In this document: in pieces, positions 5,639 to 35,231 of the stretch
Layout: each line of letters starts with the position of its first letter
Numbering within the stretch: position 1 is the stretch's first letter
DNA from: a virus
Length of the DNA: 41,728 nt
Reading direction: 5' to 3' (one strand)
Virus record (IMG/VR): IMGVR_UViG_3300046170_000439
Location: 1 to 41,728 of that record
The notes under the pieces: generated by a model
What the model was told of the DNA's origin: nothing
The model's database searches: none
What the model saw: the letters and a program-made list of their open reading frames with translations, nothing else
Program-made: the position numbers and the translations under genes

Positions 5639-6618
5639 ATGGAAACACAGGATACTACCAGCGTGGCTTCCGCTGAAACTGAAGCAGACAACAGCAATGC
5701 TGACACCAATCTTTCGATGGAAGATTTGGCTTCTTCATTTATGGAGAAAGTCGAAAACGAGTCGAATGAGTCTTCTACCGAAGCAACTGATAGCACAACC
5801 GAGACTGAAGTTGTAGATGCGGAAGAAGAGGAATCAGAAGTTCTTTCCCAGTCTAACACCGAAACCGAGGACGAATCCGAAGAGGAAGAGGAAACGGATG
5901 AAGCTCAACCAAAGGGACTATCCAAAGCTCTCAAGCAAATCAATCGATTGACTGCTAGAGCAAAAGGAGCAGAAGAAGAAGTCCAGGCACTTAAAGAGCA
6001 AATCCAATCTCTTAAAACCAATCCATCTCAAGAAACAGAGAACCCAAGCCAAGCCAGCTCTAGACAAGATTAACACTCTTGAAGACTTGGAGGCTTTGAG
6101 GAAGGAAGCACTTTCTGCCAAGAAGTGGGCATTTGACCACATTGGCAAAGATTATGTTGAGATCGATGGTAAAGAGTATGAAGACAGCCAAATCCGTTCG
6201 ATTCTAAGGAAAGCGAAGAATATCTCACCGAAAAGATACCCGAACGAGCAAGGTATTTGCAGGAGAAACAAGCTTGGCAAAAGACACCGCTCAGTTGTTT
6301 CCCTACATCGCTGAAGGCGATGGAGCTGACTACGAGCAATATGTTCAAATCAGACAAGCCCCTGCATATAAAAACATACTCGATTCACTACCCAACGGAG
6401 ATTTCATCGCAGGAGTAATTACAAAAGGGATGAAGGCAATCGAGCTTGAACAAGCTAAGAAGCCAGCACCGAAAGTGAAAACTCCTCCACCAAGTGATGC
6501 AGGAGATGCAGTCGCACCTCCAGTTGAATCCAAGGAAGTTAGACAGAAGAAAGCCAAAGAGAAGATTCTAGGGTCAGGCAATGTGTCGGTAAACCAATTC
6601 GCACAATTCTTAACCTAA
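5639..6618 (+). CDS. Scaffold protein, frameshifted
   Basis: Three overlapping frames (5639-6073, about 6050-6314, 6274-6618) give one protein of about 325 residues directly before the capsid gene. The N-terminus is strongly acidic, Ser/Thr/Glu-rich and low complexity (about residues 1-90), then a coiled coil (ARAKGAEEEVQALKEQIQSL), a central globular part (AFDHIGKDYVEIDGKEYED) and a Lys/Pro-rich tail. This is typical of scaffolds that guide procapsid assembly and are then lost. Removing one C from CCC near 6043 restores PALDKINTLEDLEALRKEA. At least two further one-base changes near 6210-6290 recover EEYLTEKIPERARYLQEKQ. The call rests on composition and position. Confidence 0.65.
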
Positions 6619-6631
6619 CTTTTATACAATC

Positions 6632-7720
6632 ATGGCACAGGCAAATATTACAAATATTACATCCGTTCGTGGCGCTAGAGAGGACTTTATCCAATCAGCT
6701 TCGTCGGGTAAACCCGGAGGAGACACCTCTATATTCATTACTTCCACAATCATCCGCTCCAAAGGCGACAAAAACAGAATGGTTAGTCGATACGCTCGAT
6801 AATCCTGCATTTGCTCCATTAGCGGACGGAAAAGACCTTACATTCAATTCTGACTACACCAATGAATTGGCAAATCGCCAAAGACTTGGAAACAAGATTC
6901 AGCAGTTCCAAAGACAAGGTGCAGTATCACCGATCTCAGAAATGATCGATGTTGCAGGGCCACAAACTTCGCTTCTTGCTGCCTCAAAAGCCCGGATTTT
7001 AACCACGTTGAAAACTGACATCGAGGCTTGTATTGGAAGTAATCAAGCTCCTGCTGATGATAATGGAACAGTCTGGTTCAAAGATGGCTGGTCTTTTCCA
7101 CATATCTGATCCAACAGCAAGTGGTGCTAGTTCGTTTTTTGAAACAACTGCTAAACAAGCTTTTCGTTCAGTAAGTGGTTCAAGACATAGCTACTGGCAA
7201 TCTTACAGAATCCGCGTTCAGAGCTGTAGTTCAATCAATCTACGAAGCCGGAGGAACTTCACAGACTTACCGCTTGTTTGCAGGGCCAACCCTCATGAAC
7301 GCTCTTACAGATTTCTCAAGAGCGATCAATGTTGTTGGTGGATCAAACTCTAAATTCGATGCAAATATTCAAGGTACTAAACTTACTTTGAGTGTTGTCG
7401 AGATAGTCTCTGATTACGGAATTATCCAAGTGATACCTGACCTTTTCTTAAACAGAACTTCAGGCTCAGCTCTTGGAGCTTTGGGTAAGAAATCAGGAAT
7501 CCTTATTCCTACCGATGACAATGTCAGCTTGAAGATGCTTCAGCCGATTACTGTCCAAGACCTACCTGATGTAGGGGGTGGAGGTGAGAGATTTCTCACA
7601 AGAGCGGTTCTTACTCTCTGTGTTCTTAATCCAAGAGCATTGGGATCAATTGTCCACAACTTCCTAAACTTTAACCAACCAATGGCGAGGGCTGACCCTG
7701 ATTATCGGGGTCAGCCTTAG
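6632..7720 (+). CDS. Major capsid protein, SU10/DUF5309-like, three frameshifts
   Basis: Start ATG 6632 (MAQANITNITSVRGARED), 10 nt after the scaffold stop, with no Shine-Dalgarno. After correction it is about 360 residues. The N-terminal REDLSNQLRRVNPEETPLYS, then TKTEWLVDTL, is the signature of the SU10 major capsid family (DUF5309). Cures: drop one T in TTT near 6692, one T in TTTT near 7095 (gives WSFHISDPT), one G in GG near 7175 (gives VQDIATGNL). The C-terminal domain (about 7175-7720) reads cleanly. As the most abundant virion protein it should be highly expressed, which makes the indels very unlikely to be biological. Confidence 0.8.
7690..7716 (+). terminator. Strong hairpin at end of capsid gene
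   Basis: GGCTGACCC and GGGTCAGCC form a perfect 9-bp stem around a 9-nt loop, ending 4 nt before the capsid stop is complete. No U-tract follows. It could be a partial terminator or an mRNA-stabilising 3' structure that sets a high capsid to neck ratio. Confidence 0.5.
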
Positions 7721-7735
7721 TCGCACCTAAAAATC

Positions 7736-8686
7736 ATGCCTTTAAACATCATAGTAAAATCAGGTGGACAAAAGAAGATGAGCGATGAGGAACTTGCTCA
7801 TTACATGGCAAAGAGAAACGACGAATCTGCCATTCGTAACAGCTCCACTTACAGAGATAGATCACGCCAAATCCGCAAAGAAGCAGAAAAGCTAAAATTG
7901 CCCGATGGAATGAAAGTCAGGGCAGTCTATGACGCTAAAATGTTTCAGGCTCATGAAGAGCGAAATCCCGGCTGTATGAGTGATGAAGGTTATCTCCGCG
8001 AACTACGCAGAGATAACGATGAAATCAAAGATGTGAGGACAATTAGATACCAGGATCTTTTAGCAAAATACACTTCGATGCGAGGTGTAGACGAGTTGCT
8101 TGATGCCGAAAAAGCAGACTTTTCAAATTCGCTTAATCATCGGATCAAACAAATTTGGATAAAAGCAAAGTGGCCCGATTTAATTGTGGTAGTTCAGAAG
8201 ACAATTCAAGTTATTGATACTGAAACTCTCAAGGCTGAAAACGCTGTACGGATTGATAATGCAGACGATCTTTTTGATGTGTTCGGGGTCTATAACAAAA
8301 ACCCTTACGAGGAAACTAACGCGATACGCATTGATCATACCTTAATTGATGGCTACTTGGTTTTACCGCGTTCCAACACAGCTTCTAAGGTTTTTATAGT
8401 CGGTTCAAAAGTGCCACATGATGACTATGGCAATGGTTATTTTTCGGGACAGGGTCGTGATGATATTCCTGCATTTATGGAGTGGATGCTCCTCAGTTAT
8501 GCAATGCATGACTACCTTTTAGCTGATGGTCAGGCTGATAAAGCATTAGCAGAATTACAAAAAGCAGAGTCATATCTAGCTGATGCTTTAGAACGTTTCG
8601 AGAGAGTAGAAAGCCAAAACAAGATCACAGTAAATACTTATTCTTCTCCTTACTATAATTCTACAATTTCTCAGCGAAACATATGA
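7736..8686 (+). CDS. Neck/head-tail adaptor protein with N-terminal extension
   Basis: 316 residues, intact. Residues about 105-316 resemble phage neck adaptors: a helical start (VDELLDAEKADFSNSLNHRI then KQIWIKAKWPDLI), a beta middle (DGYLVLPRS) and a C-terminal helical bundle (PAFMEWMLLSYAMHDYLLAD). The first 105 residues are basic and helical and look like a separate small domain of unknown role. It follows the capsid and overlaps the next gene by 4 nt. Adaptors dock below the portal ring and gate DNA exit. Family call is by fold pattern and gene order. Confidence 0.6.
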   Translation: MPLNIIVKSGGQKKMSDEELAHYMAKRNDESAIRNSSTYRDRSRQIRKEAEKLKLPDGMKVRAVYDAKMFQAHEERNPGCMSDEGYLRELRRDNDEIKDVRTIRYQDLLAKYTSMRGVDELLDAEKADFSNSLNHRIKQIWIKAKWPDLIVVVQKTIQVIDTETLKAENAVRIDNADDLFDVFGVYNKNPYEETNAIRIDHTLIDGYLVLPRSNTASKVFIVGSKVPHDDYGNGYFSGQGRDDIPAFMEWMLLSYAMHDYLLADGQADKALAELQKAESYLADALERFERVESQNKITVNTYSSPYYNSTISQRNI

Positions 8687-9486
8687 TTGGATCATTTTCA
8701 GTTTGTGCAAATGACAGAGCAAAGCGTGAAGTCGCTTTACTTATCAAAAGTATTCGGCAGTTTCACGATTGCCCAGTTTTTGTATTTTGCGACCTTGAAA
8801 CTAAGTCTTTCCTTGAAAGCCTTGGGTTTGAAAATGTTGTCTACAAGCTTGAACTTGACGCAGACAAGCTTGAGAAGAAAGAACGACTTACTCGTCATGT
8901 AACTGATCAGAATGATTTCCATTCTAAGCCAATCATTCTATCTAAAATGGATTGTATTGAGTGGGCAGTTTGGGAAGCAGGAGACACTTTTTTTGTAGAT
9001 GCTGACATTGTATTTCTTAAGCCAGTTGATGAAGAAATAGACCGCACAATGGAGCTGATGCTCTCACCTCATTTTCATGTAGAAGATAAGATCAAAAGTA
9101 ACAAGACCTATGGCTCTATGAACGCAGGATATCTATGGACACGTTCATTAGATTTTCCACAAGCGTGGCGTGATGTTTATCTTACTCGATCCAAGTTCTA
9201 TGAGCAGGAAGGAATGATACATTTCTTTGAGCAATTTGATACTAAGACTTTTGGCAAAGATCATAACCTTGGATTTTGGAGATATCCAAAGAAATGGAAT
9301 CGTGGAAACCTTCTTTTGATAGAACCTTCTATTGATTGGGAAAAAGTTAAGAGTGTCCACTTTCATGCATTCCCTGAGACTTATGCTCATGCTGATTCAG
9401 GCTTGATAAAAGGTTATGATTTGTTGAAGGAATCAATTTATCCGCACTTGCCGGACGAACTTAGGAGTTTTGCCGATGCTATATAG
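8683..9486 (+). CDS. Glycosyltransferase, GT-A-like
   Basis: 267 residues. After an N-terminal Rossmann-like half (VALLIKSIRQFHDCPVFVFC) comes the metal and nucleotide-sugar binding DxD in DTFFVDADIVFLKP, then an acceptor-side NAGYLWTRS and a late His-rich segment (KSVHFHAFPETYAHADSG). It should transfer a sugar from a nucleotide donor; donor and acceptor are unknown. It is first of three coupled sugar-modifying genes between neck and fibre genes, sharing 4 nt with the neck gene and overlapping the sulfotransferase start. No signal peptide or membrane segment, so it works in the cytoplasm. Confidence 0.75.
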   Translation: MIGSFSVCANDRAKREVALLIKSIRQFHDCPVFVFCDLETKSFLESLGFENVVYKLELDADKLEKKERLTRHVTDQNDFHSKPIILSKMDCIEWAVWEAGDTFFVDADIVFLKPVDEEIDRTMELMLSPHFHVEDKIKSNKTYGSMNAGYLWTRSLDFPQAWRDVYLTRSKFYEQEGMIHFFEQFDTKTFGKDHNLGFWRYPKKWNRGNLLLIEPSIDWEKVKSVHFHAFPETYAHADSGLIKGYDLLKESIYPHLPDELRSFADAI

Positions 9487-10147
9487 CGAGCAAAATAAGT
9501 GGATGTTTATTCATGTTCCGAAAAATGCCGGAACAAGTTTACAAGCAAACTACACCGATATGGGGTATGACGATAGAGGCTTATTATCATTTGATAGTAG
9601 ACTAGAAAATCGTGTTAAAGCAAAAGTAGAGCATTACTTTCCTAAAGGAGATGTTGTTCATAACAAGTGGAGCTACTTCAAAAATAATTCAAAATTTGAA
9701 GGCTTCACACCAATAGCTTTACTAAGAAACCCTTGGGATAGAGCATTATCAATTTACACATTTAGTTTAGAGAGAGCTAAGAAAGAGCTGGGAAGCGAAT
9801 GGGCTAACTACGATCATCCAATATTAGTTAATCAAGGTTTTAAGAGAGCTTGGATGGAAGGTGGCTACTTTGTGGACAATCATGCAAAATCCACAGAATA
9901 CAACGAGGAAACTAAGAGAGCCTGGTCTTACAATGAAGATCAATATTCGTGGCTACAAGGCGAAGGACAATGGTTTCGATTGGAAGACCAACTTGAAGAA
10001 ATCTGCAAGTTCACAGGTCTAGAAAATCCACCAAAACTTAATACATCAAAACGATTGGATTATCGTTTGTACTATGATGATGAATTGGCAGAAAGAATAG
10101 CAAAGCTCTTTGCTAGAGATATTGAACTAGGAGGCTATTCATTCTGA
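9476..10147 (+). CDS. Sulfotransferase family protein
   Basis: About 223 residues from ATG 9476, which has AGGAG nine bases upstream; an in-frame TTG at 9470 is possible. The N-terminal FIHVPKNAGTSLQANY is the 5'-phosphosulfate loop of PAPS-dependent sulfotransferases. ALLRNPWDRALSIYTF is the 3'-phosphate binding RxPxxRxxS-type motif, about 75 residues later as usual. Mid-length, as in Sulfotransfer_2-type carbohydrate enzymes, with no membrane anchor. It would sulfate a hydroxyl on a glycan, using host PAPS. Flanked by two glycosyltransferases in a tightly overlapping run (TGATG to the next gene), it most likely acts on the glycan they build. Confidence 0.8.
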   Translation: MLYSEQNKWMFIHVPKNAGTSLQANYTDMGYDDRGLLSFDSRLENRVKAKVEHYFPKGDVVHNKWSYFKNNSKFEGFTPIALLRNPWDRALSIYTFSLERAKKELGSEWANYDHPILVNQGFKRAWMEGGYFVDNHAKSTEYNEETKRAWSYNEDQYSWLQGEGQWFRLEDQLEEICKFTGLENPPKLNTSKRLDYRLYYDDELAERIAKLFARDIELGGYSF

Positions 10148-10974
10148 TGAAGGTTTTAATTTATCAGGTTTATGTACCTACTAATCATCAAGGTGATCCA
10201 GTAGATTCTCCAAAGCCAAGAATTGTAAAAGAGTCAGTTGACTCTTTTACAAAGTATGCGAAGAAGCATGGTATTGACTATCTCTTTGAGGATACCCCCA
10301 CCTTTAAGAAGAACCAAATCCCAAAGGATAAGGATGGTCGGATGAGGTTTTATTGGTCGATGGCTTTGTGTCGCGATGAGCTACTCAAATACGATTATGT
10401 CATTCATGTAGACACAGATATTATAGCTCAGGAAAACGCTTCAGACATACGACCTCACCTCAAAGGTGACTTTTGTGCAGTCCGTGAATTAATTGATTAT
10501 CTAGGTCGTTGGCATAAGCCTTTGCAAGCATTACGAAGAGCGTGGGAATATCACGGAAAAGCTAAATTCTATGGTTATGACCAATACCAGTACTTCAACT
10601 CAGGAGTTTGGGCTAGTTCAGCTAAAGCTAGACTTGTAATTCGTGAAAACTGGAGAAAATGGGCATTTAGAAAATGGGAGGAAAGAACGCCAAAAAGATT
10701 TCCATTTAAAGAAAGAAGCCCTTTTGAAGGCGATCAAGATATTCTGAACGCAATCGTACACACATCAGATTTGGAATTTCACCCGTTAACATGGAACTGG
10801 AATGGTCTTTCTGATGCCCTGAAGAATATAGAACAAGCAGACTTCATCCATTACTGCGCCAAAGCTGGAAAGTTTTTATTCAAGCATCCTGAATATTTAG
10901 AAAAAACCCCTTTTACCCCTTTAGAGCTAGAGGAACTAGAAGCAGTCGCTAAACAAAACACTCAAACTATTTAA
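10147..10974 (+). CDS. Glycosyltransferase, GT-A-like
   Basis: 275 residues starting inside the sulfotransferase stop (TGATG). The nucleotide-sugar site is YDYVIHVDTDIIAQ with a DxD. YQYFNSGVWASSAKARLV resembles the acceptor loop of GT8/galactosyl-transferase-like enzymes, and FEGDQDILNAIVH is the conserved D-Q-D-xxN helix seen in such families. The C-terminus is helical. It shares architecture but little obvious sequence with the 8683 enzyme, so the pair are not recent duplicates. Three nucleotides separate it from the fibre-like gene. Likely adds a second sugar to the same product. Confidence 0.78.
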   Translation: MKVLIYQVYVPTNHQGDPVDSPKPRIVKESVDSFTKYAKKHGIDYLFEDTPTFKKNQIPKDKDGRMRFYWSMALCRDELLKYDYVIHVDTDIIAQENASDIRPHLKGDFCAVRELIDYLGRWHKPLQALRRAWEYHGKAKFYGYDQYQYFNSGVWASSAKARLVIRENWRKWAFRKWEERTPKRFPFKERSPFEGDQDILNAIVHTSDLEFHPLTWNWNGLSDALKNIEQADFIHYCAKAGKFLFKHPEYLEKTPFTPLELEELEAVAKQNTQTI

Positions 10975-10977
10975 GCT

Positions 10978-11487
10978 ATGGCGGACAGAAAAATATCGCA
11001 GTTACCGATTACAGAAACTTTTGATGCTGAGGATATAATTCCAATTGTTGATGTCAGCGAGACTAGAACAAAAAAATTAAAAATTGGTAATTTACTTACC
11101 GATCAGATGACCGCAGATGAGAAGACAAAACTTGCTGGCATCGCAGAAGGAGCAACTGCTAATCAGATAGACGCTCACTTATTAAATCGTGACAACCATG
11201 TGGGAACGATTCCAGCCTCTGTAGTATCTGATTTTAATACAGTTGTAGATGCACGAATCAGTTCATCCGACGGAGCTGGTCATGGATCGGGATCAGTAAC
11301 ACAACATAGTGATGTAACAAATGCCGGAAGCGGTGCAATTATTACAACCGCTGAACGAAATTCCATAAGCAATCTTGGAACTGCTTCAACAAAGGATGTG
11401 GCAACAACAGGAGATGCCTCTGATACCCAAGTCGTTAAAGGAAACGACTCAAGACTTACGGATGCAAGACATCCAATTCTTCCATGA
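10978..11487 (+). CDS. Tail fibre-like structural protein
   Basis: 169 residues. The start MADRKISQLPITETFDAEDI is the usual opening of phage fibre or spike adaptor proteins. Two common fibre motifs follow: TADEKTKLAGIAEGATANQI and LGTASTKDVATTGDASDTQV with GNDSRLTDARHP. It ends in that last motif without a receptor-binding tip, so it is short for a fibre and may be an adaptor carrying the 14354 fibre. Overlaps the lipoprotein gene by 4 nt. It is a plausible substrate for the adjacent sugar-modifying enzymes (inference). Confidence 0.7.
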   Translation: MADRKISQLPITETFDAEDIIPIVDVSETRTKKLKIGNLLTDQMTADEKTKLAGIAEGATANQIDAHLLNRDNHVGTIPASVVSDFNTVVDARISSSDGAGHGSGSVTQHSDVTNAGSGAIITTAERNSISNLGTASTKDVATTGDASDTQVVKGNDSRLTDARHPILP

Positions 11488-11854
11488 TTCTACTCCTGCC
11501 ATTATTCCTGCTCACAGGTTGCTCAATGAAGCAATGGTATCCTACTATGGGAGCAGTAGTAGGCGGTGGAGTTGGTTCATTAGGTGGCCCAACTGGATCA
11601 GCTCTTGGTGCTGGTAGTGGAGCTTTAATAGGGGAGGTAGCAAAAGGTAACGCTGAGATTGAAGAAGCAAGGGAGAACCATATCAGCGCTTACTCATGGA
11701 GATGTCGAAACTCTGATTGAGAAAGGTATGGAGCAACACGCTAGTGGATTTGAATCCTTTCACAACTACGATCAAACGAATCCTAATCTTTGCATTCATC
11801 GGACTGCTTTGCTATCTCGCGATTCCCAATCTTTGTCGCCCGGAGATGCAGTAA
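11484..11854 (+). CDS. Lipoprotein with C-terminal membrane helix, two frameshifts
   Basis: The first frame starts MILLLPLFLLTGCSMKQW, a type II signal peptide with a lipobox Cys, followed by a Gly-zipper stretch (GGGVGSLGGPTGSALGAGSG). A second frame adds ISALTHGDVETLIEKGMEQH. A third adds a basic turn and membrane helix, IKRILIFAFIGLLCYLAIPN, ending PEMQ at 11854. Joining them by one-base changes near 11665 and 11750 gives about 120 residues. A lipoprotein plus membrane helix in the lysis region suggests a unimolecular spanin-like or envelope-fusing protein, but the assembled sequence must be confirmed. Confidence 0.5.
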
Positions 11855-11859
11855 GTCAG

Positions 11860-11876
11860 AAGTCCAAAAAGGACTT
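11860..11876 (+). terminator. Short hairpin after lipoprotein gene
   Basis: AAGTCC and GGACTT flank an A5 loop, 5 nt after the stop at 11854. There is no U-tract, so it is only a candidate weak terminator between plus-strand transcription and the opposing 12021-12383 gene. Confidence 0.3.
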
Positions 11877-12020
11877 ACCAATCCACCATTCCCTGTTCGT
11901 CCAAGTCAAATGTCATAATAATCATGATGAGAATGTTCAACTTTTTGCCATTTAACCAGCCACTCTTTGAAGTGAATTTCATTAATTTCAATAATATTTT
12001 TAACAGCTTGAATTTCCTTT

Positions 12021-12383
12021 TCATTCTTGGAGAGAAAGCTTCGAAGTCAAAAGATCAACAAGATGGTTACTGTTCTTTTTTATTGTCCAAAGTTCGTAAA
12101 GTTCAGCTGCCAACTCATATTCTTCTATAGAAATAAAGGCATGGCCACAATCCTCTCGCCGACCAATATTCTCAATACAAAAAACAATTTCATTTTTAGC
12201 AATATAGCAGTACGGACAGATTCTTCGTTCCTTCTTGCTTTTGTAACTTCTCGTTCTTTTTTCAACAATCTCGTCACTTGGTTCAAAATCACAAACTGGG
12301 CAATAATCAATCCCCAGAGAGTAAAATTCTGCGTCCGTAAGTGCGTGACACTTGGGGCAGTCAAAAAATTCATTAAAAACCAT
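12021..12383 (-). CDS. Zinc-ribbon protein, minus-strand accessory gene
   Basis: 120 residues with CxxC knuckles at FDCPKCHALT, DYCPVCDFEP and RICPYCYIAK plus a later REDCGHAFIS. They suggest two zinc-binding ribbons, then a helical tail (ELAAELYELWTIKKNS). It opposes the lysis genes on the plus strand, separated from them at both ends, as an independently transcribed accessory gene. It resembles small zinc-ribbon proteins found in bacterial genomes. Nucleic-acid or protein binding is likely; role unknown. Confidence 0.6.
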   Translation of the reverse strand: MVFNEFFDCPKCHALTDAEFYSLGIDYCPVCDFEPSDEIVEKRTRSYKSKKERRICPYCYIAKNEIVFCIENIGRREDCGHAFISIEEYELAAELYELWTIKKNSNHLVDLLTSKLSLQE

Positions 12384-12418
12384 TCGTTGTACGAAACAAT
12401 TTTAAGGGCAAATTTTCA

Positions 12419-12536
12419 ATGAAAAATTTCAAACTACTTGCCAGACAAATACAAATCCCTAACCAAACGAGGAAAGATGATTACTTGCCTAGTCATTCTA
12501 ATACTTATCATCTTCATCGTAGATTGTTGCTGGTAA
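12419..12536 (+). CDS. Tiny membrane protein, probable one-base error
   Basis: ATG 12419 begins MKNFKLL in a frame that loses the obvious membrane helix. Adding one A to the AAAAA run gives a 39-residue protein whose tail is GKMITCLVILILIIFIVDCC W then stop, a clear transmembrane helix. Even without correction, ATG 12477 gives a 19-residue hydrophobic peptide. The stop overlaps the next start (TAATG), indicating translational coupling. Its place before the holin-like gene suggests a lysis accessory such as an antiholin; this is inference. Confidence 0.4.
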
Positions 12537-12679
12537 TGGATAGGACATTTCTAGCAGGATTCACAGGCACTTGTGCCAGCATTGGACTTGGTCAAGTTCA
12601 TGCCATAGTCGGCATCATCGCTGGTCTAGCGACTATCGTCTACATGAGCATCAAGATTTACGAGCTACTCAAGAAATGA
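12536..12679 (+). CDS. Holin-like small membrane protein
   Basis: 47 residues from ATG 12536: MDRTFLAGFTGTCASIGLGQ then a hydrophobic helix HAIVGIIAGLATIVYMSIKI and a short basic tail YELLKK. The first 20 residues are mildly hydrophobic and may form a second helix. Size, topology and charge at the C-terminus match small phage holins that puncture the inner membrane. Coupled on both sides (TAATG before, ATGA after). An upstream frame from 12419 fuses unrelated residues and is not preferred. Confidence 0.55.
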   Translation: MDRTFLAGFTGTCASIGLGQVHAIVGIIAGLATIVYMSIKIYELLKK

Positions 12680-14351
12680 CTCGCTATCGTACATATGGGA
12701 AGCTTGATGATCCGATGCGAGAAGTCGGTGACACAGGTTTTTCTGCTTTAGCTTCTAGAGACGAACCAACCCAGCTAGAGGCTGGGGTGGTGAGTGAGTC
12801 AAAAAACATTCGTTTAGATGATGGCAAGGCAACTACTCGCCTTGGATATACTACTCAAATTGACTTTGAAAGACCTGTCACTTGCGACTGAAGAAGATGA
12901 AGCCATTGTAGCAGAAGAGCGGTGGTTCACATTTACATTGATGAGCCTACTTCTAATACCTTCTACAGCGCGACTTATTTCGGAGGCATTGGAATTGAGG
13001 ATAGAAACCAAATTATCCTGGTGCAGGATGACAAACTTCTTTTCTACAATGGGACAAGCTACACAGAAAAGGAATTTGAGACCAACTATGTCTTTGATCC
13101 TATTTTACCGATCTTCCTTAGATTTTATTCTTGGGCAAAATGAATCTAGCGAGCCATTTCTCACAGGTGATCAAGTAAAGGTTGTTCAGTTTAATAACCA
13201 ATTAATTTTGCTTTCCGGCAAAGGGTCAAACCTTCCTGTTAACCTCGATTTTAAACTTGGGCAAAAAGTTCAAAAGTGGAATGGCGAAGAAACATCTGAC
13301 TTTGTAATCGATGAAAATATTCCAAACGGAGACTTCGGGGTAGTAACTGGAAACAGACTCGCGATCAAAACTTCCAATGATGTAATTTCATTCAGCGACA
13401 TTGCTAATGAATCAAATTACGATGTTCTTGCTAAGTTCACTTTCGGGGCTGGAGATGGTGATGACATCATAGGAATGTCACCTATTCCTGAAAATGCGGC
13501 GTTAGTATTTAAGAGACGATCTATTTGGGCAATAAGCGGTCTTAACAGCATTGAGAATGCTTTTATCACACAAGTCAGCAGACAAACTGGGTGTGTTTCT
13601 ATGCATTCAATACAGAATGTAGGTTCAGCCGTTTTCTTCCTTGGGGATGGTGGCGTTTATGCAATGGACATCGGATTAGATGCCTCTAATGCACTTGGTA
13701 CTTTAACTCGTTTTGATCTTCGTGATGAACCGCTATCTAAGGCAATCAACGATCAAATCCTAGCAGAAGATTTTACCGAAGCTGAAAATTCATGCAGAAG
13801 CGTATTCTTTAACAATCGTTACTATCTCTCGTTCTTAAAAGATGGTGTTTCTCATGTTTACATTTTTCAACACCCTCATGGGGGCGTGGGAAAGCCGTGA
13901 TGAATATGATTTTAGCATTCTTGATTTTGTTAGGGCGAAAACAAGAGCAGACAAAAACGAAAAATTATATGCTATCTCAAGCACCGGGAAATTATTTCGC
14001 ATGGACGATGGTCAAAGTGACGATGGCGAGTTAATCCCTTGGAGTCTCAATACTAGAGCCTACGATAACAAAAACCTAGAGATCAAAAACTTCAGAAGAG
14101 GTTATGTGAAAGTCGAATCCTTAGATTCGACTGGAACAACTAATTTGAGTGTAGCTATTTCTGATCCTGATTCCACTTCCAGTATTCAATTAAATCGCCC
14201 GAATGACGAAGGCTACATCGAGCGATTCACAATCGGCAAACGAGGTAACAGCCTCATGTACAAATTTTCAGGGACAGGACGAAATGCCATCAAGCATCTT
14301 CGTGCTGAATTTATCGAATCCCAAAATAATACAATCTCAACCAATCAATAA
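12676..14351 (+). CDS. Large virion structural protein, four frameshifts
   Basis: Start ATG 12676 (MTRYRTYGKLDDPMREVGDT). Frame segments 12676-12891, about 12870-12920, 12922-13130, 13120-13900 and 13880-14351 combine to about 555 residues. The opening SRDEPTQLEAGVVSESKNIR matches the N-terminus of podovirus tail-associated or stabilisation proteins. The rest is beta-propeller-like with repeated strand pairs (VVQFNNQLILLSGKG, VFKRRSIWAISGLNSI, AVFFLGDGGVYAMDIG, FFNNRYYLSFL). Removing one T from TTTTT near 13866 yields VYIFNTLMGAWESRDEYDF. Likely a tail tube, hub or nozzle protein. All breaks look like homopolymer errors. Confidence 0.6.
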
Positions 14352-14353
14352 CC

Positions 14354-16009
14354 ATGGCACTTACACAATCAAACAATCACACCTTTTCATCAGGCGAGCT
14401 GGTAACTGCTACCAAGCTTAATAATGTAAAAGCTGTTCAAACTGACACAGCTACTAATAACAACAATTTCACAGGTAGTGCTGGTCAATTAACATTTGAT
14501 ACTACTGCGAATAAACTCCGTGTTCATGACGGCTCGACTGCTGGTGGACTTGAGGTTGGGGCAGGAGCTGGAAGTGTCACAAGTACAGAAATAGCCTCTG
14601 ATGCAGTAACAACTGCTAAAATTAACGATAGTGCTGTAACCACAGCTAAGGTTAACGATAGCGCTATAACGACTGCTAAAATTGATGATGATGCCGTAAC
14701 AACTGCTAAGATTGCAGACAACGCAATAACAGCATCACAAATAGCTTCTAATGCTGTAGATTCTTCTGAGATTGCCTCTGATGCAGTAACAACTGCTAAA
14801 ATTAACGATAGTGCTGTAACCACAGCTAAGGTTAATGATAGCGCTATAACGACTGCTAAAATTGCTGATAGTGCAGTTACATCTGCTAAACTCGCTGATA
14901 ATTCTGTTACTAATTCCAAAATCAATATTAGTGCATTGGATGTTACAAACACTAGTGGTCTTGCTTCTATAGAAGTAGGAGCATTAACTGATTCACACAT
15001 CGATTTAAAGTCACCTGATACCGATGATTACGATTTAAGGATTATCCATCAAGGTACTACTCTAGAGAGCGTACATAATTCAAGATCAAGACTTGAAAGT
15101 AGTGGCTCACTTGGTCTTGTCGCAGGGGCTGTACCTTCTACTAGTACACCTGGTCAAGAGTTTGTAACTCTTGAAAGCAATGGAGACTTCAAAGTAGCAG
15201 GAGATGCTGACCCTATTTTAATAAACACAGACGCATCAGCAAATAATATAGGCATGGGTAAAAACCCAAGTAATGTATTTAAATTAGATGTATGGGGTGG
15301 CTCTAGCCACCCTAATATACTTAATTGCGGAGCTGATAATCCTGGTGGAGGTGTGGCAACCTATATAAGAAATAGTAGTGCAACAGGAATAGGTGCAATC
15401 TTACAATTGCTTGCTAACTCAAGTTCAACTGCTCTTACGAGTAGAATAAACCTAGACCTACAATCAGGGACAAATGAGTTTTTTCAGATAAGTTTTAATA
15501 ATCGCGATAAATGTGCGGTCAGGTTACAAAATTCAAGTAATGGTAGTAATGCAACTGGGAGCGGAGCTTTTTTCCCAGCAACCAACGGAAACCAAGATTT
15601 AGGATTAACAGGTTCTCGGTGGGATGATGTTTGGAGCAATGGTACTTTTAATGGATCAGATGGTAATTTAAAACAAGATGTTGAAGGCCTTGATGAAGCA
15701 GAAAAACGAGTTGCAGTTAAAGCCAAAGGTTTAATCAAAAAGTTTCGTTGGAAAGATGCGGTCGAGAAAAAGGGTGATGATGCTAGAATCCATGTAGGTG
15801 TAATTGCACAAGAGCTTGTTGAAGCTTTTGAAAGCGAGGGACTTGATCCATTCCGATACTCAATGCTTGGTAAAGACACTTGGTGGGAAGGAACTGACCA
15901 CAATGGTCAAAGGTCGGTACAAAATAAACCTACCGAAGGTTATACCGAAGTCACTCAGTTAAGTGTCAGGTATAACGAACTTCTTGCTTTTATTATCTCT
16001 GCACTTTGA
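14354..16009 (+). CDS. Tail fibre with S74 intramolecular chaperone
   Basis: 551 residues, intact. Residues 1-70 form the virion-attachment part (HTFSSGELVTATKLNNVKAV). Residues about 75-195 are 10-residue repeats of the type DSAVTTAKIN, likely a triple-helical shaft. A beta-rich region follows (about 200-430). The C-terminal 115 residues are a Peptidase_S74/endosialidase-type autochaperone: SDGNLKQDVEGLDEAEKRV with the Ser/Lys positions used in self-cleavage, KGLIKKFRWKD, then VGVIAQELVEAF. The chaperone trimerises the fibre and is then cut off. It is the likely host-receptor binder and a candidate substrate for the phage sugar and sulfate enzymes. Confidence 0.85.
   Translation: MALTQSNNHTFSSGELVTATKLNNVKAVQTDTATNNNNFTGSAGQLTFDTTANKLRVHDGSTAGGLEVGAGAGSVTSTEIASDAVTTAKINDSAVTTAKVNDSAITTAKIDDDAVTTAKIADNAITASQIASNAVDSSEIASDAVTTAKINDSAVTTAKVNDSAITTAKIADSAVTSAKLADNSVTNSKINISALDVTNTSGLASIEVGALTDSHIDLKSPDTDDYDLRIIHQGTTLESVHNSRSRLESSGSLGLVAGAVPSTSTPGQEFVTLESNGDFKVAGDADPILINTDASANNIGMGKNPSNVFKLDVWGGSSHPNILNCGADNPGGGVATYIRNSSATGIGAILQLLANSSSTALTSRINLDLQSGTNEFFQISFNNRDKCAVRLQNSSNGSNATGSGAFFPATNGNQDLGLTGSRWDDVWSNGTFNGSDGNLKQDVEGLDEAEKRVAVKAKGLIKKFRWKDAVEKKGDDARIHVGVIAQELVEAFESEGLDPFRYSMLGKDTWWEGTDHNGQRSVQNKPTEGYTEVTQLSVRYNELLAFIISAL
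14594..14864 (+). repeat. 91-bp direct repeat inside fibre shaft
   Basis: Bases 14594-14684 and 14774-14864 differ at one position (C/T in a GTTAA(C/T)GATAG context), 180 bp apart. They encode identical shaft repeats (SDAVTTAKINDSAVTTAKVN). The near identity indicates a recent duplication that lengthened the shaft. Confidence 0.9.
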
Positions 16010-16395
16010 TGGCAAAAATCACCGCAGATTTGGTCAAACAGGTTGTCGCACCAATCCATGAAATCATGGAGATGTACGATAACAAAGCAGACTTTGTTAA
16101 GGACTTGGAGAGTTATCTTCAAGCAGGAGTGGTAATATCCACTCCTGCGTTCTTCCTAATGGGAAAGCCTGTGGACAAGTCTGTCGATCCAAGCGGTCAA
16201 TGGTATACAAATTCCGACAAATGCGATGCTTGGTTCGTTAAGTGGGCTTCAGGAAAAGGTGCGATGCAGTACATGATGGAAACTGTTAAGCCACTCGCTC
16301 ATGTGATGTTTAGCCGATTGAAAGGCAAGGAAACTACCGACTACAAAGTTTACGATTGGAACAAATTTAAACGGAGAATCGATTATGGGAGCTAG
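16009..16395 (+). CDS. Uncharacterised late protein
   Basis: 128 residues. ATG 16009 overlaps the fibre stop (TGATG); a TTG at 16006 is also possible. N-terminal helices (KQVVAPIHEIMEMYDNKADF) are followed by a segment rich in aromatics (PSGQWYTNSDKCDAWFVKWA) and a basic C-terminus (YKVYDWNKFKRRIDYGS). No signal peptide or known catalytic motif. Between fibre and internal virion proteins, so a tail accessory or fibre chaperone is possible. Not recognised. Confidence 0.6.
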   Translation: MAKITADLVKQVVAPIHEIMEMYDNKADFVKDLESYLQAGVVISTPAFFLMGKPVDKSVDPSGQWYTNSDKCDAWFVKWASGKGAMQYMMETVKPLAHVMFSRLKGKETTDYKVYDWNKFKRRIDYGS

Positions 16396-16690
16396 AGGGA
16401 AAACAGAGACACCACCGCCAAAAATGACACCAATATTTACCGATGATAAGGGTAATATGTACAAGCAAAACCCTGAATACACGAAGAAGATGAAAAAGAT
16501 CGGGGAGAAACCTTTTGGCATGATGGCATATGGTATGCACAGAATGAATCCATCTAAGAACAAGTTTGGAACTGACAATATACCGGGCGACGACGAACGC
16601 TTCATTAAAATAAGTTCAGCAGAATCACCTAGCACACCAAAGTATGGCACAGCTAGGCGGTATAATCCTAAAACAGGAGGAGCAATCTAA
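16385..16690 (+). CDS. Small basic uncharacterised late protein
   Basis: 101 residues, overlapping the previous gene by 11 nt and the next start by one base (TAATG). Lys/Pro/Gly-rich and probably disordered at both ends (ARGKTETPPPKMTPIFTDDK, YGTARRYNPKTGGAI), with a short core EKPFGMMAYGMHRMNPSK. Such small basic proteins occur next to internal virion proteins. Function unknown. Confidence 0.6.
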   Translation: MGARGKTETPPPKMTPIFTDDKGNMYKQNPEYTKKMKKIGEKPFGMMAYGMHRMNPSKNKFGTDNIPGDDERFIKISSAESPSTPKYGTARRYNPKTGGAI

Positions 16691-33778: not shown

Positions 33779-33817
<39 letters not shown>

Positions 33818-33882
33818 AAGTAATTGATTATTAGTCATTTACACCACCAAAAAATCATTTCGTTTGACTTTGATTTTCAGAA

Positions 33883-33902
33883 ATGGAACACTTTTGTTCC
33901 AT
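33883..33902. promoter_or_regulatory. 20-bp operator palindrome, copy 2, before integrase
   Basis: ATGGAACA-CTTT-TGTTCCAT, perfect arms, 60 bp upstream of the integrase ATG. A -35-like TTGACT (33864-33869) lies just before it, so a bound repressor would overlap the likely int promoter. Confidence 0.78.
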
Positions 33903-33962
33903 CGAGATGATCGTGACTCATCTCTTAAAACATCTAACGACAATAAAGGAGACATTAGACGC

Positions 33963-35231
33963 ATGAAGCAATTATGGGACATTTCTGCAATCAAAGAACC
34001 GAAGTACCTCCCATCCCGAAAGGTTTGGGAAGTGTATGGAGTTTTGCCAAAACGAGACGCAAATGGCAAACGAAAAAGACTGAGGAAAGTATTCGATACC
34101 AAGGAACAAGCTATCGCATTTCGGAAATCTCAGCAGGACGAATGGAAGGTTTATTCCTTACAAGGTAATGTAAGAAAAACGCGACTTACTGAGGAGCAGG
34201 AAAGTGACGCTATCAATTCACTAAAATTGATCCGCACTAAGTTTCCTGATTCATGGGAATCGATTAGCTTGTTCAACGCGGTCAGCTTTTACTGCAATCA
34301 ATACGATCCGAATCACAAGATCATGTTGCTGGACGATGCAATTAAGAGGTATCTCAAAAGTCCAAAAATAAGTCGAAGCTCAGACCTTCACCAAAAACAG
34401 ACTCGTAACAAGCTGGAAACATTCAGAGAGCATTTCGATAATAGAGAAGTCAGTGATTTCACCGCTGATGAAATGGAAGAATACATCTATGATGAGAACA
34501 AAGATTGGGCTGATAAAACGAGAGCCAATCATTATGCAATCCTGCACACCTTCTTTAACTTTTGTCTGAAGAAGGATTTGCTTCTCAAGAATCCTGTGTC
34601 GAAGGTCGATAAACCAGCTCCTGAAAATCTTGAGCCTGTTGCACTAAGCATTCCTGAAGTGGAGAAGCTCATGAAGATTGCTGAAGAGGTAGATGCCGGA
34701 TCAATGATTCCATATTTTGCTCTAGCTATATTCTCAGCAGTTCGACCATCTGAGATTCTTAGGCTCAGATGGGAGAAGTTTGTATGGGATGATGACAAAC
34801 CATGCTTTGTTGTGGAAGGGAAGGGCAAGCGTAGAAGATCAGTTGATATGCATGAGACTTGTATCAAGTGGATTAAACCACTTGCTCAAGAAGAGGGTGA
34901 TGTTGCCCCTGCCAATGCTAAGAAGCTATTTAACCTGATACGAGCAATCGCTGGTTACAGAGTCAGCCGTAGCTCCATTGAGATTGCAGAGGCTGAAGAG
35001 TGGGAAAGTAAGCTCCAGGATCTTGATAACGAAAAGAGACCTGAGTGGGTTAGAGATGTTATGCGTCACACAGGTATTACTTACTATCACAGGCTCATCA
35101 ATGATAAGAATCAAGTGGCAAGCTGGGCTGGTAATTCACCGCAGATTATCGATTCAAATTACCGGGCAGTTGATGGAGTGACAGCATCTACTTGCAAGAA
35201 GTTTTGGGATATAGTACCTAATCATCTTTAA
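33963..35231 (+). CDS. int: Tyrosine-recombinase integrase
   Basis: 422 residues from ATG 33963 (MKQLWDISAIKEPKYLPSRK), chosen because AAAGGAGAC lies upstream; the longer frame from 33864 would run through the operator. The N-terminal arm-binding part is basic, followed by a SAM-like core-binding domain (LETFREHFDNREVSDFTADE). Catalytic residues: Arg in FSAVRPSEILRLRWEKF, Lys in VEGKGKRRRSVDM, His-Arg region MRHTGITYYH, and Tyr in IDSNYRAVDG. The C-terminal KKFWDIVP ending recalls integrases common in Verrucomicrobiota mobile elements. It would recombine attP with a host tRNA-Phe gene. Confidence 0.85.
   Translation: MKQLWDISAIKEPKYLPSRKVWEVYGVLPKRDANGKRKRLRKVFDTKEQAIAFRKSQQDEWKVYSLQGNVRKTRLTEEQESDAINSLKLIRTKFPDSWESISLFNAVSFYCNQYDPNHKIMLLDDAIKRYLKSPKISRSSDLHQKQTRNKLETFREHFDNREVSDFTADEMEEYIYDENKDWADKTRANHYAILHTFFNFCLKKDLLLKNPVSKVDKPAPENLEPVALSIPEVEKLMKIAEEVDAGSMIPYFALAIFSAVRPSEILRLRWEKFVWDDDKPCFVVEGKGKRRRSVDMHETCIKWIKPLAQEEGDVAPANAKKLFNLIRAIAGYRVSRSSIEIAEAEEWESKLQDLDNEKRPEWVRDVMRHTGITYYHRLINDKNQVASWAGNSPQIIDSNYRAVDGVTASTCKKFWDIVPNHL

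Follow-up and report, generated by a model that had tools for sequence, protein, structure and literature searches.

A predicted glycosyltransferase–sulfotransferase cassette among the virion genes of a temperate Verrucomicrobia phage lineage

The cassette and its predicted enzymes

The DNA analyzed here, referred to as the window, is the IMG/VR virus record IMGVR_UViG_3300046170_000439 of 41,728 bp. Its virion operon contains three overlapping plus-strand genes, gtA (8683..9486, 267 amino acids), sul (9476..10147, 223 amino acids from an ATG start) and gtB (10147..10974, 275 amino acids), which are predicted to encode a glycosyltransferase, a sulfotransferase dependent on 3′-phosphoadenosine 5′-phosphosulfate (PAPS) and a second glycosyltransferase. 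An earlier note on this sequence had proposed such a cassette, and the three open reading frames (ORFs) were confirmed as intact. The overlaps in the window ORFs are 4 bp between gtA and the preceding gene g4, 11 bp between gtA and sul and 1 bp between sul and gtB, and a gap of 3 bp separates gtB from the next gene, g5. A TTG at 9470 is also a possible start for sul. These overlaps are compatible with late coexpression with the structural genes, as had been suggested. The motifs quoted in the note are all present, namely FVDADI in gtA (D106/D108), HVDTDI in gtB (D89/D91) and HVPKNAGTS and LLRNPWDRALS in sul, with key residues invariant or nearly so in relatives. The enzyme identities also extend beyond chance, with sul and gtB exceeding Pfam cut-offs and gtA giving a confident GT-A fold prediction.

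No family match was found for gtA in Pfam, PHROGs or NCBIfam, and the sequence falls outside the Pfam GT8 family. An AlphaFold model built from an alignment of 12 gtA relatives reached a predicted local distance difference test score (pLDDT) of 90 and a predicted template modeling score of 0.91. The solved structures nearest to this model are glycogenin, LARGE1, LgtC and UGGT, all GT-A enzymes, with template modeling (TM) scores of about 0.55-0.6 at sequence identities of about 12-18%; the best match was to glycogenin (E 2.4e-9), and LgtC matched with E 1.6e-7. Residues invariant in the 12 relatives include the DxD motif (residues 106-108), an N-A-G triplet, Q175 and two histidines near the C-terminus, which by comparison with LgtC we take to be compatible with GT8 chemistry. 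On the basis of the model, gtA is predicted to be a GT8-like glycosyltransferase of GT-A fold that shares the fold and DxD motif of the GT8 enzymes glycogenin, LgtC and LARGE1. In contrast to gtA, gtB passes the Pfam GT8 threshold, narrowly (Glyco_transf_8, 24.9 bits against a cut-off of 24.3); its DxD residues D89 and D91 are invariant among relatives and D196-Q197-D198 is conserved. Sequence-only searches of solved structures with a gtA profile and with a gtB profile returned nothing useful.

The sulfotransferase assignment of sul is supported by a match to Sulfotransfer_2 (PF03567) at 27.6 bits, above the cut-off of 22, and by a match to phrog_3347, annotated as galactose-3-O-sulfotransferase, that runs across the length of sul (E 2.3e-15). 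Among 15 sul relatives, residues F11, H13, P15, G19, H62, R84 and S92 are invariant and K16, N85, P86 and R89 nearly so, and the 5′ and 3′ PAPS-binding motifs are thereby kept; the conserved H62 is a candidate catalytic base. Searched alone by sequence against solved structures, sul gave nothing useful. The profile of the 15 relatives matched SULT7A1 (E 2.6e-4) and, weakly, heparan sulfate sulfotransferases of the 6-O and 2-O types (E about 0.007-0.009); PAPS-binding motifs are shared with heparan sulfate and cytosolic sulfotransferases. Cultured phages hold three distant relatives of sul; no relative of gtB was found in the cultured-phage searches, and none of gtA among 50,697 phage records (INPHARED).

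Constant pairing and exchange of partner enzymes

Viral contigs were searched with each cassette gene separately, and 25 gtA loci besides the window were examined, 24 on viral contigs and one in a provirus (loci are designated by L numbers). With the window included, these comprise 22 distinct gtA sequences at 95% identity, 15 at 70% and 11 at 50%. At every one of the 25 loci a sulfotransferase-type gene lies downstream of gtA on the same strand, mostly overlapping it, or is fused to it, as in L039 and L040; at none of them does it lie upstream. Within the lineage of the window, this site is occupied by gtA together with a sulfotransferase at each locus found through g4 with sufficient downstream reach.

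The partner is not a single protein family. Besides sul homologs, the gtA loci carry Sulfotransfer_4 proteins (L033/L052 and L038; Pfam E 4e-27 in L033 and 2e-29 in L038) and a third type, present as a separate gene in L054-L057, L059 and L062 and as the fused domain in L039 and L040. This third type was not part of the training set of the sul profile, which nevertheless detects it with E values of 1e-5 to 1e-8; the exception is L040, which is assigned from its 40% identity to L039. Profile matches hold by construction for L005, L013, L015, L019, L033, L036, L037 and L038, whose sequences went into the profiles, and L033, L036, L037 and L038 have independent Pfam support.

The order gtA-sul-gtB is found in the window and in L007, L013, L015 and L045, and again in L005/L006 and L017-L019, where the surroundings are unrelated and the genes stand beside a large terminase. 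L003/L004 lack gtB. The equivalent site is occupied in L033/L052 and L038 by DUF6625, Sulfotransfer_4 and Gly_transf_sug proteins, with an additional Galactosyl_T protein in L038, and L036 carries a Methyltransf_24 protein and a GT25 protein. That gtA stays fairly constant as the enzymes encoded after it are exchanged suggests that the first step is common and the end groups vary. Because of the constant pairing, the recurring gene order and the replacement by functional equivalents, a joint sulfated-glycan pathway of the three genes is well supported as a prediction from sequence.

Exchange also occurs gene by gene. Between L013 and L045, gtA is 96% identical, sul 51% and gtB 27%, with the preceding gene at 74%; synonymous divergence (dS) reaches 0.22 in gtA, whereas in sul it is saturated. 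Such one-by-one exchange would suit a mosaic of host-derived surface-sugar genes that have unrelated small roles and no joint pathway. Against this stand the pairing at all 25 loci, the gtA-sulfotransferase fusion and the replacement by equivalent enzymes, as well as the rarity of gtA in hosts: among 289 genomes of the host's phylum it was found in one, which is the provirus itself, and a short-pattern scan of a genome-contig collection found it in that provirus only. We therefore regard a mosaic as improbable. In the unsaturated L013/L015 pair, the ratio of nonsynonymous to synonymous substitution (omega) is about 0.08-0.12 for the three genes, indicating purifying selection.

Several arrangements at or near such loci differ further. 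In L007 (6670-8040), a methyltransferase-like domain stands in frame ahead of gtB within a single 457-amino acid ORF, which may be a real fusion or the result of a lost stop. Positions 9821-10957 and 12241-13623 of L060, and their equivalents in L061 and L064, encode cysteine patterns suggestive of radical-SAM/SPASM proteins between gtA and the sulfotransferases. In L020 (3692-7291), an HK97-type major head protein is followed, with no gtA, by methyltransferase-like and sulfotransferase genes and then by a glycosyltransferase-like ORF, perhaps a similar arrangement that arose independently.

Genomic context, provirus and host

In the window, gtA directly follows g4 (7736..8686, plus strand), a virion-region gene that is kept with gtA across the lineage and that itself directly follows the major head protein gene (6632..7720, plus strand). 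The earlier note had placed the cassette between neck and fibre genes. The fibre gene stands, at 14354..16009 on the plus strand, whereas a neck identity for g4 was not confirmed, its sole PHROG match being a weak one to a family of unknown function. Virion genes likewise surround the module elsewhere: it follows a tape-measure-like protein and other tail-like genes in L054 and L062, lies between collagen-like GPT-repeat fibres and neck-like genes in L039, L057, L060, L061 and L064, adjoins head maturation protease and connector genes in L040 and follows a fibre-like gene in L036. Labels of neighboring genes have PHROG support in L005, L020, L036, L039 and L040 and were assigned from sequence by the analyst elsewhere.

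This location also bears on a role in DNA hypermodification, in which the glycosyltransferases would decorate modified phage bases and sul would sulfate the added sugar. We know of no sulfated DNA glycans. No nucleotide hydroxymethylase or similar base-modifying gene was found among the scanned window ORFs, and the cassette lies in the virion operon, outside the replication block. Although phage glycosyltransferases can hypermodify DNA, according to work cited in PMC12619734, we consider this role highly improbable here.

The single provirus among the loci, L045, lies on contig 22 of the single-cell genome "uncultured Verrucomicrobia bacterium AG-908-P09," whose isolate name we read as pointing to a marine cell. 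Over two aligned parts, the capsids of L045 and the window are 90-97% identical; the cassettes share only 66-81%. The phage part of contig 22 ends exactly at the end of a stretch identical to window positions 33780-33817, beyond which host genes follow. In the window this attachment-site core, read on the minus strand, is the 5′ half of a tRNA-Phe gene and is followed by the integrase gene (33864..35231, plus strand). A second copy of the stretch lies within an intact tRNA-Phe gene on contig 10 of the same genome, beside an integrase that shares 98.5% identity with the window integrase. The stretch at the provirus end and its second copy beside the integrase therefore mark a temperate lineage that integrates in the tRNA-Phe gene of Verrucomicrobia. 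Both phage-host junctions were recovered, on separate contigs (L073 and L072).

The same host genome encodes an adenosine 5′-phosphosulfate (APS) kinase, and a 16-kb contig (L048, 1-16209) carries an ABC exporter, glycosyltransferases, methyltransferases and several sulfotransferases. On the basis of the exporter, glycosyltransferase and sulfotransferase genes of this contig and of the APS kinase, the host probably makes its own sulfated surface polysaccharide. Aligned to L045, the window shows about 95% identity between 5.5 and 8.0 kb, 69-79% between 8.0 and 11.5 kb and mostly 86-97% over 18-32 kb, with gaps near 22.5-23.5 kb, and most of the fibre (14.5-16 kb) cannot be aligned. The cassette and fibre (window 8000-16500) are a hypervariable block in an otherwise highly similar genome.

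An alternative is that the enzymes act on the host surface, where they would add or sulfate sugars on precursors of lipopolysaccharide or capsule, either in lysogens or at a late stage of infection, with superinfection exclusion or reduced sticking of released particles to debris as the outcome. The phage lineage is temperate, a single contig of its host combines several sulfotransferases with glycosyltransferases and an ABC exporter in an apparent sulfated-polysaccharide locus, and the joint variation of cassette and fibre against a conserved backbone is what would be expected if both track a variable surface. Temperate phages with surface-sugar enzymes are known from the gtrABV-type serotype-converting prophage cassettes, which resemble the window lineage in combining temperate life with sugar enzymes. 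However, those cassettes include a flippase and a membrane glycosyltransferase and lie beside the attachment site. The window cassette has no flippase or lipid-linked glycosyltransferase, no hydrophobic membrane-type segment was detected in gtA, sul or gtB, and it lies at 8.7-11.0 kb, about 23 kb from the attachment site at 33.8 kb. The gene overlaps leave no room for a promoter of its own, promoter-like sites are not above those in shuffled sequence, and modules of this kind stand amid virion genes in unrelated phages as well. We consider action on the host surface rather unlikely, though it is the main alternative.

A possible sulfated glycan on virions

The reading that we favor, by a slight balance of probability, is that a temperate marine Verrucomicrobia phage has in this cassette a small sulfoglycosylation pathway, predicted from sequence, that is expressed late together with its virion genes and places a sulfated glycan on a virion protein. 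In this pathway, gtA would transfer the first sugar from a nucleotide sugar to the virion protein, gtB would extend or branch that sugar, and sul would sulfate a hydroxyl group of the sugar, with host-made PAPS as the donor. An exposed virion protein would thereby come to bear a short glycan of negative charge, and this glycan could mask the particle or mimic the host's own sulfated polysaccharide. The catalytic activities, order of steps, acceptor and biological role are those that we infer. The earlier note had allowed for a sulfated glycan on virion proteins or a change to the surface of the dying host; the joint pathway, which the note marked as inference, is well supported by the pairing, recurring order and enzyme replacement, and position and recurrence point to the virion as the likelier acceptor. 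The virion is favored on the grounds that phages with otherwise unrelated neighborhoods repeatedly have the module amid virion genes and that it contains no membrane or lipid-linked component.

Candidate acceptors in the window are the major head protein, the tail fibre and g5 (10978..11487, plus strand), a repeat-bearing Ser/Thr-rich protein resembling head-decoration or tail proteins. The match of g5 to phrog_2647 has E 4.7e-4 and that of its relative in L045 E 6e-15, with Ser plus Thr contents of 21% and 26%, respectively. A direct enzyme-acceptor link between gtB and g5 was considered from their joint absence in L003/L004/L010, but this absence is possibly one deletion and L033 has g5 without gtB, so that the link is kept as a lead. 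Long collagen-like GPT-repeat fibre genes lie directly 5′ of the modules in L039 (1712-7321), L057 (3-4058), L060 (3-4937), L061 (1-4221) and L064 (259-4305), and their Thr-rich repeats are plausible glycan acceptors.

Several points weigh against a virion pathway. The position in the virion operon is circumstantial evidence, and the host's own sulfotransferase-rich polysaccharide locus is an equally possible target of the enzymes. Some related phage sulfotransferases (L021, L023, L027) sit in large sugar-gene clusters and could serve the host surface. Furthermore, the sul model (pLDDT 83) is poorer than that of gtA, and its first 41 structure matches, all to sulfotransferases, are weak (best E 2.7e-3, TM about 0.43).

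Virion glycosylation and annotated phage sulfotransferases were both known beforehand. In the mycobacteriophages Che8 and Rita, phage glycosyltransferases are thought to glycosylate the capsid and tail tube (Freeman et al. 2023, as reported in PMC11256854 and PMC12619734). The window cassette similarly includes phage-encoded glycosyltransferases, but these two reports mention no sulfotransferase, and they place the glycosyltransferase genes of mycobacteriophage Maravista near the genome end, unlike the location among virion genes in the window. Nothing related to gtA in sequence turned up among the 50,697 phage records. Marine OM43 phages carry sulfotransferases of PF13469, a Pfam family other than that of sul, with no fixed glycosyltransferase partner reported, and the authors describe phage sulfotransferase function as unclear (PMC10580990). 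We found no report of sulfated phage virions, of a sulfated sugar coat on any phage or of the gtA-sulfotransferase pairing in the open-licence literature.

The constant partner, the recurring location among virion genes and the host sulfotransferase locus together yield the testable claim that some phages build sulfated glycans. If virions carry these glycans, the known range of phage virion glycosylation would widen from mycobacteriophages to marine Verrucomicrobia phages and beyond, and the charged sulfate group could affect adsorption, mimicry and particle stability. A broader version, which we put forward tentatively and hold to be somewhat doubtful, is a virus-specific sulfoglycosylation in which the gtA family, so far seen in phages and one provirus and always paired with a sulfotransferase, would form sulfated glycans on virions of several unrelated phage types, with downstream enzymes exchanged in a serotype-like manner and possibly copying the host polysaccharide.

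Finally, some gene calls differ between the window and its relatives. The g4 gene is one ORF of 316 amino acids in the window and two adjacent ORFs (99 and 219 amino acids) in L003, L007 and L045. Conversely, a scaffold-like gene (5639-6618; 326 amino acids in L045), the major head protein gene (three ORF pieces in the window record; 343 amino acids intact in L045), g6 (11484-11955) and g7 (12571-14351; 558 amino acids in L045) are split in the window and single ORFs in L045. The broken window genes look like insertion or deletion errors in the record, by which the cassette is unaffected.

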